The position numbers and the translations under genes are program-made. Shown piece by piece: positions 7,995-12,452 of a stretch of DNA of 64,000 nt. The notes beneath the pieces were generated by a model that was not told the origin of the DNA, ran no database searches, and worked only from the letters and a program-made list of their open reading frames with translations. The first letter of the stretch is position 1; each line of letters begins with the position of its first letter. Source of the stretch: Saprospiraceae bacterium. Lineage in GTDB: Bacteria > Bacteroidota > Bacteroidia > Chitinophagales > Saprospiraceae. The stretch is from the NCBI GenBank assembly GCA_020629035.1, contig JAHDEC010000004.1, positions 124,001 through 188,000 of the forward strand, in the 5' to 3' direction.

Positions 7995-8220
7995 ATAAAA
8001 AGTAAAACAATATAGAGAAGTGCCTCACTAAGTTAATTAATCACTGATTATTCTAGCACTTATAACTGCATTATTGTTGACTGTAAAACTTCAACAAAGC
8101 AGCACGAAATCAACATCTTTCTTTTCGGTTTTTCAATATGTATTTGATTTCATGAGTGATGATTCTACCTTAAAATAATCTGATGAAAAGAATGTTTCAG
8201 CATTTTATAAATTCATCGCT

Positions 8221-8496
8221 TTATATCCAGGAGCAACCCAGCAAACTTATTCGGCTAAAGAATGGTGGCTCTTCATGTCTAGGGAATATGAATTCAACAT
8301 TGTCAGCTAGCACGGCCTTTCTTGATAGCGACCCTTGATTAAATTTGCTATCTTTTGATAAATATCCACTTTCGTCACATTTAAAAAATATTTGATTGGA
8401 TTCATATTCATTAGGCCAACAGTTATCCTGACCATAAATGCTAAAGGTTAATAAAAGGCATAGCGATGCTAAGCCGCATTTTGTGTAGTTTCTCAT
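8221..8496 (-). CDS. Short secreted protein, possibly a truncated remnant
   Basis: A 91-residue product with a clear signal peptide (RNYTKCGLASLCLLLTFSIYGQ) followed by about 68 residues with three cysteines. I recognise no family. The abrupt end (LLGCSWI, then TAA) and the decayed surroundings suggest it has lost its C-terminus. The reading frame after the stop shows no extended similarity to a sorting domain. Its first codons and leader are copied at 9143-9195 (see the repeat entry), so the gene predates the local tandem duplication. It lies 31 bases downstream of the intact lipoprotein gene on the same strand. Expression is uncertain. Confidence 0.45.
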   Translation of the reverse strand: MRNYTKCGLASLCLLLTFSIYGQDNCWPNEYESNQIFFKCDESGYLSKDSKFNQGSLSRKAVLADNVEFIFPRHEEPPFFSRISLLGCSWI

Positions 8497-9195
8497 AATT
8501 AAATCTGTTTTTGGTATATTTTTTTGGCTAATAAAGTATTTCGACTAATGTAGTATCATATGAAGGGGTGAAAATATTTCTGAAGATAAATTCACCATCT
8601 ATTATGTTAGGTTTGTATCTGATTTCATTTTCAATATCTCCTGTAATTAAAAATAAATCGTCAAAATCTCCAAATCCTCCAAATATTGTGATTGAGTTAC
8701 CATTTGCGACTGAAAGTAATATCTGATTACCTTCTATTGTGTCCACATTCATTGCTTTAACTCTTACCCAAGCCTCAGCTCGCAACTCGTGCTCCATATC
8801 CATTGCTTCACTTTCAAAAAATTCTGCTCCATGATGTTCCCAATAACCTTCTTTTTCTAGTTCTGCTCTATACAATGAAAGAGAACCTATATCATCAACA
8901 CAGGCTGTATATAGTCCATTTTCGTCAGTCCTAACGGTGTCTAATAGCTGTCCTCCTTTTTCATAGATGGATATAAAGACATTTTCTATGGGCATGCCGT
9001 TTCCGAAGTCAGTCACAATGCCTTCTACACATACTCCATTGCATCTTTCTTTTCCGCATGAAAAGAGACACAGTAAGATAAGTAGACTAAATAATGTTGA
9101 AATATTTTTCATAGTTCTAATTGTTATATAATGCACCACACGTTGTGTAGTTTCTCATAATTAAATCTGTTTTTGGTTTAAATTTTTTGGTTAAT
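8481..9195. repeat. Direct repeat marking a 662-bp tandem duplication
   Basis: A 34-base block at 8481-8514 is repeated exactly at 9143-9176, and similarity continues with small changes to about 8531 and 9195. The block contains the leader and first codons of the MRNYT gene that starts at 8496. In the second copy these codons run into a stop after 13 residues (ATG at 9158). The offset of 662 bases equals one lipoprotein gene plus spacer. An ancestral lipoprotein gene plus the start of its downstream neighbour was therefore duplicated in tandem. Confidence 0.75.
8528..9112 (-). CDS. Lipoprotein with carboxypeptidase-regulatory-like domain (intact copy)
   Basis: A 194-residue product starting at ATG 9112 (MKNISTLFSLLILLCLFSCG); a longer in-frame start at 9139 would spoil the signal. 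The lipobox LFSC at about residues 16-19 predicts signal peptidase II processing and lipid anchoring. Residues about 24-70 (VEGIVTDFGNGMPIENVFIS, then LLDTVRTDENGLYTA) look like a carboxypeptidase-regulatory/transthyretin-like beta-sandwich, common in Bacteroidota surface proteins. The rest is unassigned. It is the intact member of a tandem pair; the second copy at 9191-9776 is frameshifted. The function is unknown. Confidence 0.7.
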   Translation of the reverse strand: MKNISTLFSLLILLCLFSCGKERCNGVCVEGIVTDFGNGMPIENVFISIYEKGGQLLDTVRTDENGLYTACVDDIGSLSLYRAELEKEGYWEHHGAEFFESEAMDMEHELRAEAWVRVKAMNVDTIEGNQILLSVANGNSITIFGGFGDFDDLFLITGDIENEIRYKPNIIDGEFIFRNIFTPSYDTTLVEILY

Positions 9196-9776
9196 ATTTT
9201 ATGTCTAAATAAATCGTATCTCCTTTGTCTGCAAATACTTTGATTTCAAATGTTTGAGGGTCAGGTACCCATGCAGATAATTCTCTATAAGTAATTATGT
9301 AATCCATATTGCCAATGATTTTATTTTTTTTATTATAATTTGGAAGACTTATTGTATGAGTTCCAATAGTAGTTGCAAATAAACTTATTATTCCTCCAAC
9401 AATAGAATCAACATCCTCGGCAGTTATCCTAACCCATGCTTCTGCTCTCAACTCATGTTCTTGTTCTTGAGCAAAACTTTCAAAAAATTCTGCTCCATGG
9501 TGTTCCCAATATCCTTCTTTTTCTATTTCTGCTCTATATAATGACAGAGAACCTATATCATCAACGCAGGCTGTATATATTCCGTTTTCGTCAGTCCTTA
9601 CGGTGTCTAATAACTGTGCTCCTTTTTCGTAGATGGATATTTAAGACATTTTTGATTGGCATGCCGTTTCCGTGGTCAGTCACAATGCCTTCTACACGTA
9701 CTCCGCTGCATCTTTCTTTTCCGCAGGAAGAAAAAAGAAAACATAGGGATATAAATAAAATAGAATGATGTTTCAT
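9191..9776 (-). pseudogene. Second lipoprotein copy, disrupted by a +1 frameshift
   Basis: A paralogue of 8528-9112. From ATG 9776 it reads MKHHSILFISLCFLFSSCGK (lipobox FSSC) and VEGIVTDHGNGMPIKNV. Comparison with the intact copy shows one extra base around 9640-9650, where this copy reads gatatttaagac and the intact copy gatataaagac. This shifts the frame and ends translation at 9591. The correct frame resumes as SIYEKGAQLLDTVRTDENG and stays open to the stop at 9191 (GDTIYLDIKY). The C-terminal part has diverged from the sister gene, so both were probably functional for some time before this copy broke. Confidence 0.8.
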
Positions 9777-10044
9777 GCTTGCAATTTCTGTTTCAAAGTT
9801 CACTATATCCTTTGATGAAATAGTAAACAATGTATAAATCAAGAATAATGTAGTTTACTATTTGTAAAATATTGGCAGTCTTCCAAGCTGTTATCAAAAT
9901 GGATCGTTCTGATCTTTACTAATTGTTATTATTTACGATTGCTTAGGTAGGGTATTGTAGGTTTGACTTGTTTTATATAGGGTGATGTTAATCATCTTAT
10001 GCATTTAAATCCTACTAGATTGTATATGACAAAATGTAATTAAA

Positions 10045-11495: not shown

Positions 11496-11783
11496 TGGGC
11501 TTGCTTTCAATTTTGTAACTGATAATAAATGCTTGATCTTAAGGCTACAGAACTCTTCTAACAAATTATCATTTCACCCAGAAGTAATAAGATAAAAAGA
11601 ATGATTTGGCTGTTCCGTTTTCCCTAAAAAATTCCTCAAAAATCAATTTCCTGATTAAAATCACTCAAAATAGATTCCACAAGGGCTTGCCGATGTTCCT
11701 TCAGAAATCGGACATTGACTTGCCGATGTTCCTTCAGAAATCGGATATAAGGATCTCGCCCATGCTTTTTCTCTAACAATCTT
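11496..11783. other. Intergenic, entry to the repeat array
   Basis: No gene seen. From 11670 the sequence carries a copy of a block also found at 12005-12096 (see the repeat entry). A 64-codon open frame on the minus strand across 11636-11830 consists only of these repeats and is not a credible gene. Confidence 0.5.
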
Positions 11784-12096
11784 GCATAAAAAAAGACTGC
11801 ACTTTCATACAGTCTTTCTGGTGGTTCCACAAGGCCTGCCTTTGTGAACCTTTTAGTTAACTAGATTTTTTAAATGCATAAAAAATGACCACGCTTTCGG
11901 ACAGTCTTTACGTTGTTCCACAAGGCTTGCCTTTGTGAACCTATTATTTAACTAGATTTTTAAATGCATAAAAAAAAAACCGAACTTTCGTACGGTCTTT
12001 TAGTGGTTCCACAAGGGCTTGTCGATGTTCCTTCAGAAATCGGACATTGACTTGCCGATGTTCCGATGGAAATCGGACATAAGGATCTCGCCCATT
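11670..12096. repeat. Duplicated 92-bp block with ccgat...atcgg hairpins
   Basis: 11670-11763 and 12005-12096 are near-identical. Each begins with a tRNA-tail-like ttccacaagggctt. Each then holds two copies of the small palindrome ccgatgttccttcagaaatcgg (arms CCGAT and ATCGG; the last copy is changed inside the loop) and ends in ataaggatctcgcccat. The pair is offset by 335 bases and encloses array units 3 to 5, which indicates a segmental duplication inside the array. Confidence 0.7.
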
Positions 12097-12245
12097 CCTA
12101 TTTCATACTCTTATAATAAAAAAGACCACGCTTTTCAACGTAGTCTTAATGTGGTTCCATAAGGCCTGCCTTTGTGAACCTTCTTATTGCTAATAAACTT
12201 ATGAAGTATAACAAAAAAAGACCAAGCTTTCACTTGATCTTTTCG
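11784..12245 (-). repeat. Array of hairpins each joined to a tRNA 3'-end copy
   Basis: Five imperfect units are seen at 11784-11850, 11877-11941, 11968-12025, 12115-12180 and 12211-12262. The last is the real tRNA terminus with its terminator. On the plus strand each reads A-run, stem, loop containing cttt, stem, T-run, then tggttccacaagg. The last part is the complement of the tRNA acceptor and T-arm. Stem arms differ between units but stay paired (for example AAAGACTG with CAGTCTTT, and GACCAAG with CTTGATC). In three units the tail has become a near-palindrome, ggttccacaagg-cctgc-ctttgtgaacc. This looks like repeated copying of the tRNA terminator and 3' end. Confidence 0.75.
12211..12245 (-). 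terminator. Terminator of the CAT tRNA
   Basis: Immediately downstream of the tRNA on the minus strand, the arms AAGATCAAG and CTTGGTCTT form a stem around a short loop, followed by TTTTTTTGT. This is a standard intrinsic terminator. The A-run on the other side would let it act in both directions. Confidence 0.75.
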
Positions 12246-12319
12246 TGGTTCCACAAGGGCTCGAACCTTGGACCCTCTGATTATGAGTCAGATGCTCTAA
12301 CCAACTGAGCTATGGAACC
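12246..12319 (-). tRNA. tRNA with anticodon CAT (elongator Met, or Ile2)
   Basis: A 74-base cloverleaf starts GGTTCCATAGCTCAGTTGG. The acceptor GGTTCCA pairs with TGGAACC and the discriminator is A. The D-arm is AGCTCAG...AGAGCA. The anticodon stem and loop CTGACTCATAATCAG give CAT, and the T-arm is GGTTCGAGCCC-like. CCA is not encoded. A CAT anticodon can be elongator methionine or, with lysidine at C34, isoleucine AUA; the identity elements cannot be settled by eye. Copies of its 5' end (12372-12380) and 3' end (the array) flank it. Confidence 0.93.
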
Positions 12320-12429
12320 TTTTTTCCTTTACCTTCTTAGATGCTCAATCCTCGATCTTGCATCGGGAAGCTATGGAACCTTTTTCCTTGCTTCTTGGAT
12401 GCTCAATCCTCGATCTTGCATCGGAAAGC
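12311..12429 (-). repeat. Tandem duplication of the tRNA 5' end and leader
   Basis: 12311-12371 and 12372-12429 are near-identical copies. Each contains the first bases of the tRNA (GGTTCCATA on the minus strand) and about 50 bases of leader. The primary transcript would therefore carry an extra tRNA 5' stub upstream of the real tRNA. Confidence 0.8.
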
Positions 12430-12452
12430 AATAGAACGGTCTTTAAGGACTG

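Follow-up and report, generated by a model that had tools for sequence, protein, structure and literature searches.

A decayed tandem array of tRNA-tail hairpin units behind a tRNA-Met gene in a Saprospiraceae bacterium, and its plausible origin from a minimal mobile hairpin

Behind a tRNA-Met(CAT) gene in the genome of a Saprospiraceae bacterium there is a run of short repeats that carry, again and again, the 3′ end of the tRNA itself, which raises the question of what these repeats are and how they came to lie there. The locus is part of the 64,000-nt stretch of DNA that was analysed (positions 124,001–188,000 of contig JAHDEC010000004.1; hereafter, the window), and all features of the array described below are on its minus strand.

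The tRNA-Met(CAT) gene (12245–12319), found by both ARAGORN and Rfam and corresponding to the adjoining CAT-anticodon tRNA of the preliminary description, has from N59 on the tail GCCCTTGTGGAACCAC, whose reverse complement is GTGGTTCCACAAGGGC. Its terminator hairpin, T1 (12213–12243), belongs together with the tail to a repeat family, D1, with five copies (11788–11836, 11880–11928, 11971–12019, 12119–12167 and 12213–12261); this is the number of terminator and tRNA-3′-end units first reported, the last copy being the tail and terminator of the tRNA itself. Besides the tail within the tRNA gene there are five extra copies of the tail, four of which are the other D1 copies, with a terminator of their own: T2 (12119–12149), T3 (11971–12001), T4 (11880–11911) and T5 (11788–11819). 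The remaining one lacks a terminator and is situated at ca. 11673–11686, so that the array starts there and not at 11784 as originally proposed.

The extra tail copies are of two kinds. Three of them (kind A) form the near-palindromes already noticed, at 12153–12180 (unit A2), 11914–11941 (the third unit) and 11823–11850 (the fourth); among 500 mononucleotide shuffles of each, 1, 11 and 2, respectively, attained the same fold energy. In these units GGTTCACAAAGG is followed by CCTTGTGGAACC or something close to it; comparison with the reverse complement of the tail indicates that the near-palindrome combines an inverted with a direct tail copy and is not a single tail copy that has drifted. The two others, B1 (12005–12093) and B2 (11673–11761), carry a different insert. 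The kind B inserts (repeat family D2, 91% identical) start with GGGCGAGA and end with CAAGCCC, followed by the tail. They are decayed versions of the hairpin H defined below, partly doubled in B1; in B2 the direct tail copy has diverged and has no terminator behind it. A search of its own genome did not reveal a second copy of the array, the three other matches being tRNA genes.

Other repeats occur on both sides of this array. Two tandem copies of the tRNA 5′ end (GGTTCCATAGCT...GAGCATCT), with a short hairpin-like stretch in place of the D-loop part, are found upstream of the tRNA (window 12333–12437; L016:4016–4140), and are also present in the related genome G002. Beyond the array, positions 8204–9842 contain a series of similar small ORFs that look like lipoproteins, together with a cut ORF, 1865 aa long in G002; in that genome, relatives of these ORFs flank the array on both sides.

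The locus was compared among three genomes of the genus, including G001 (draft) and G002. A search with the array identified only tRNA-like matches in G001. G002 retains the neighbouring large ORF and the tRNA, with 27.6 kb separating the tRNA from the array, and T1, which lies behind the tRNA in the window, is there situated behind a displaced tail copy. The order of units is T1-A2, T2-B1, T3-A, T4-A, T5-B2 in the window and Ta-B, T1-A2, T2-B in G002, the last one decayed; recombination between tail copies would reshuffle arrays in the way seen between the two genomes. The B unit of G002 reads GGGCGAGAAGTCAATGTCCGA...ATCGGCAAGCCC, and both B1 and B2 from the window align with it. This unit was matched by a covariance model, R1, with an E-value of 1.4e-4, even though it is absent from the alignment of the model. 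R1 yielded no match in the window up to an E-value of 5, and none in G000, the window units being too decayed for the model; the membership of the window in the family consequently rests on the G002 unit. The anatomy agrees with this assignment, since B1 and B2 keep GGGCGAGA, a CCGA/TCGG hairpin and CAAGCCC followed by the tail, having lost the inverted acceptor part, and the A units keep the inverted and direct tails, with H gone.

An intact unit of this family consists, in order, of the tRNA, a trailer (often with a terminator), an inverted tail copy, the hairpin H, a direct tail copy and, often, a copy of the trailer. Hairpin H comprises GAGAAGTTTATCCCG, a variable loop and CGGGAA, spans about 26–66 nt and contains no gene; the inverted and the direct tail copies both join it at the base next after A58 of the T loop. 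Units like the B unit of G002 are found behind tRNA-Lys in G002 and behind tRNA-Met in G032, which belongs to another genus. A 15-base pattern had five occurrences in 120 genomes (reversed control, 1); one of them is a chance match within an ORF, and the other four are at tRNAs or in the array. A gapped pattern had 20 in 17 of 398 genomes (reversed control, 2), of which about eleven are H units, including L060, with no tRNA nearby, and nine look like chance matches in genes. H as part of a dehydrogenase-like ORF (L050) was dismissed as a chance match. Since these first searches fixed both GGGC/GCCC and H, the apparent conservation of the motif derives in part from the selection of hits. A scan of 84,980 species genomes returned 92 stretches, and 75 of the 80 titles listed were from Bacteroidota, including Algoriphagus, Cyclobacterium and Mongoliibacter; one of those 80, L135, looks like a chance match. 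The analysis covered these 80 and also the other 12 stretches. In Mongoliibacter ruber, a single locus, at tRNA-Lys, contains five matches to the pattern.

Searches with R1 produced matches in 17 of 120 genomes of the family of the window (E ≤ 0.001) and in 11 of 41 genomes of the family of G404 (E ≤ 0.01). Among 30 loci fetched, 23 have an H unit behind a tRNA, four have H without a tRNA detectable by ARAGORN, two have no H according to our script, and one (L232) is not a unit; in Flavobacterium, an H unit was present in two of 30 loci fetched. Copies and covariation, whose absence had been named at the outset as grounds for dismissing the array as a product of slippage, are found in the family at large, with no further copy in the genome of origin. 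No match over the units was found in Rfam 15, either at the gathering score for the window or at E ≤ 1 for eight loci. A literature search, PMC2864571 and PMC3733652 included, found no paper on this motif, and the H unit family is seemingly undescribed.

H units are closely tied to tRNA genes. A same-strand tRNA is present within 500 nt upstream of 127 of the 153 distinct H units in the fetched loci (L235–L355 excluded); of the other units, 15 have a tail copy within 160 nt, three are at the edge of the locus and eight have neither, although in three of these eight (L082, L145 and L054, the last being the same place as L128) a partial tRNA 3′ part can be recognized by eye. Half of the stems start no more than 57 nt from the tRNA (median distance) and, among the loci examined, there was no H away from tRNAs in a form fit to be a source locus. 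One possible reading of the units is that they work as structured RNAs, made on the same transcript as the tRNA. Co-transcription is feasible for the closest units, because 34 of the 37 units situated less than 40 nt from the tRNA are not separated from it by a run of five T, and the hairpin is conserved and shows paired changes. However, runs of five or more T precede 47 of the 56 units at 40–110 nt, the presence of the units is patchy, their tRNA partner varies and Rfam does not recognise them, and we hence consider a role as RNA quite improbable.

The stems were examined with an open-stem pattern, which identified 68 places in 34 of 40 genomes, all of them picked for a GGGC-type hit, and none in the reversed control. 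The stem is GGAG/CTCC behind tRNA-Leu(CAA), GGGAG/CTCCC behind tRNA-Ala, GGTC/GACC behind tRNA-His and GGGC/GCCC behind most others; the Leu, Ala and His stems correspond to the bases of their own tRNA from N59 on and their complement, and the R1 loci supplied further Leu and Arg stems that fit the tRNA. Of 126 units that lie no more than 450 nt from a tRNA, 29 have an inverted 12-mer that resembles the complement of the tail in at least nine of twelve positions, compared to about 2.1% of cross-locus pairs. Changes on both sides of the stem occupied 46 cells of alignment A2 (44 units), as opposed to 16.5 in shuffles, with none of 500 shuffles as high, a contrast that is inflated by related rows. 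Stem positions 1–4 pair in 96–100% of 124 units, whereas the inverted copy has retained little of its acceptor part, with 41–62% pairing per position over the next eight positions versus 29–55% across loci. Selection for wobble pairs in the inverted copy was also considered: 70 transitions keep a wobble pair and 39 break the pair, but with 159 transversions besides these the counts lend the idea no clear backing. The boundary at A58 suggests the idea of a tRNA-primed reverse transcription; a complement of CCA in front of the inverted copy was not seen by eye in the 29 best units. Other copies of a tRNA 3′ half were noticed in L402, L077 and L029, with a palindrome, such as CCCCGAAAGCTTTCGGGG or TCCCGATAGCTATCGGGA, inside the tRNA part.

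Similar H sequences also occur at different tRNAs. In G032, the units behind tRNA-Met and tRNA-Arg have a long loop in common and each stem fits its own tRNA, the direct tail copy of the Arg unit having one change. Likewise, G424 has long, similar loops at tRNA-Gly and tRNA-Gln, each with the stem of its own tRNA, and in G100 the arm variant GAGAAGCTTGT is common to the Arg and Leu(tag) units. Among 12 genomes chosen for having at least two tRNA partners (G403 and G405 left out of the between set), loops were more alike within than between genomes (16 versus 305 pairs; Mann–Whitney P 8e-5, the pairs not being independent). Ten of the 16 within-genome pairs score below 0.3, and recent copying from one locus to another can therefore not account for most of the loci. 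H units are patchy in their presence, and their tRNA partner varies.

In some last units the duplication takes in local sequence as well as the tail, for the trailer that precedes H agrees with the one following the final tail copy in 18/18 (L069), 37/37 (L108) and 35/37 (L144) aligned bases. In other units the two terminators differ. Terminators of tRNA-Asn also differ among the fetched Flavobacterium genomes, and unlike terminators behind the same tRNA are thus no proof of foreign origin; nor, for the same reason, do the differing but complementary terminator stems of the window indicate selection for structure, as was initially suggested. In L378, behind tRNA-Asn, the terminators around the unit are the same except for an inverted loop (TACAAT versus ATTGTA). 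The idea that, within arrays, H changes more slowly than the trailers was dropped, because many of the 91 pairs compared set a last unit against a non-H flank.

Tandem units that are identical or nearly so occur in, for instance, L076, L078 and L104. Along with the duplicated trailers and the inverted loop of the duplicated terminator in L378, they are what would be expected if the units arose through fold-back and slippage errors of replication at tRNA and terminator hairpins, with no element involved, and slippage alone could account for the three A units of the window. As an explanation for the family, nevertheless, such errors are very unlikely, given that, across many genera, one conserved H occupies the same T-loop position in different tRNAs.

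A different origin is suggested by the 27.6 kb that separate tRNA and array in G002. This insert (L016:4214 to L017:13807, G002:C23) sits in the tRNA-Met tail and contains two tyrosine recombinases; an unrelated terminator marks its start behind the tRNA and the tail block AGCCCTTGTGGAACCAC its end, identifying the tail as the crossover block of an integrative element. Near its right side it contains genes that resemble the ones lying downstream of the window array. Genomic islands that integrate in tRNA genes, including tycheposons, use tRNA 3′ ends, keep the tRNA whole and leave tail copies, and T-loop junctions are usual for elements of this type with tyrosine recombinases. H units share the use of tRNA 3′ ends, the whole tRNA and the tail copies, and one such island is present at the G002 locus itself; additionally, integrase genes lie 223–304 nt from units in L111, L127 and L088. 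The units might then be attachment-site scars of tyrosine-recombinase elements whose cargo was lost, close to the attL-like scars of the preliminary description.

We nonetheless regard these scars as an unlikely source of the units. The G002 element has no H at its own ends, and its right end is different from a unit. In L111 and L127, the integrase gene is separated from the unit by a tRNA 3′ half that begins within the anticodon loop; this displaced half sits with the unit beyond the element, and the unit was consequently there before the element arrived. In L088 the intervening sequence is an imperfect tail copy recognized by eye, where our script detected none within 3 mismatches. We therefore rejected H as the end of integrase elements in these loci, less clearly in L088: the elements in G002, L111 and L127 have ends of their own. 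Moreover, an inverted tail copy is unexpected in such scars, and H units, in contrast to genomic islands, are short and gene-less, carry an inverted tail copy plus H and are distinct from the ends of the elements observed in these loci. The exact pattern used in the species scan is absent from viral contigs, and a search of phages and plasmids with one unit as query returned no match. The single exact match of H in a virus (L235) is inside an ORF of the contig and was taken as chance, and a looser H pattern, with at least 120 matches in viral contigs, was left out of the analysis. A motif scan of the loci for tyrosine recombinases missed known ones.

Two Bacteroidales genomes have units 5.0 and 8.4 kb apart with genes between them, including one for a Fic protein, and a common 2.1-kb block, 98% alike. 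In these places (L112:303–7300 and G430:C106:62931–71368) there is no tail copy before the unit, and the block is ordered differently. An arrangement of this sort recalls integrons, whose attC sites are foldable, with complementary arms, a variable end loop and an uneven internal loop. H units can be folded with such arms and loops and also form arrays, and it could be argued that H and its tail arms serve as a recombination site in folded form, at which a recombinase acting in trans has inserted the intervening stretches behind the tRNA as cassettes. Still, the arms of H units are the tail of the neighbouring tRNA, and cassette exchange to another tRNA would bring the tail of the donor, whereas the copies fit their own tRNA. 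As the trailers on the two sides of the last unit often agree, what was duplicated is local sequence, and no recombinase was found in the cargo ORFs examined between the Bacteroidales units. An integron-like system is accordingly quite unlikely, but the gene cargo between these units is left unexplained by the reading that we prefer.

By shape, the H family is nearest to REP-like palindromes. REP elements are short, palindromic, gene-less bacterial repeats with associated Y1 transposases, and H units are also short, palindromic and gene-less; some H loops, for instance that of L378 (CCTGAGCTTGTCGAAGG), look like REP palindromes. The REP-like element initially suggested is matched in size and shape only, because H units are not dispersed through intergenic regions as REP elements are, but lie behind tRNA genes, with an inverted and a direct tail copy and no tie to Y1 genes. 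Of the 17 genomes that R1 matches, 16 have a Y1 transposase, as do 16 of 23 without an R1 match (three of these 23, G028, G030 and G031, not being named in the R1 result list), whereas the genome of the window has none (E ≤ 0.001); for want of a clear association, we rejected this enzyme, the one candidate examined, as the mobiliser of H. We know of no parallel to the tailoring of the flanks to the tRNA.

The anatomy of the units, their place behind tRNAs, stems that follow the tRNA, the similar H at different tRNAs, their patchiness and the tandem arrays are shown by the sequences. On this basis, it appears somewhat more probable than otherwise that the window contains a decayed tandem array of tRNA-tail hairpin units, H being a mobile DNA element of minimal size whose copies enter the T loops of tRNA genes. 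The first description was right that the array is more than debris, and its three guesses bracket this answer, but the evidence comes from the insert family of B1 and B2 and not from the terminator stems. A more specific proposal, that of a gene-less mobile hairpin of ca. 26–66 nt that enters only the tRNA T loop, duplicates the 3′ tail, has an inverted tail written in front and is re-tailored to each tRNA, is more tentative and, in our estimation, falls somewhat short of an even chance.

According to the mobile-hairpin reading, H would copy into the T loop of tRNA genes right after A58, most likely in the form of a folded single strand, on which an enzyme encoded at some other place would act. 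The direct duplication of the tail upon insertion would keep the tRNA whole, and the inverted tail copy would allow the site to fold. Recombination between tail copies could then lengthen, shuffle and shorten the array; in the window, the H parts would have decayed, and three units would keep little beyond the inverted and direct tails.

Movement with re-tailoring would, if confirmed, be categorically new. If this reading is true, bacteria would contain a class of mobile hairpins, minimal and gene-less, that seek out tRNA genes and acquire flanks built anew from each target; this would also explain tandem arrays of tRNA tails that are otherwise read as island scars or debris.
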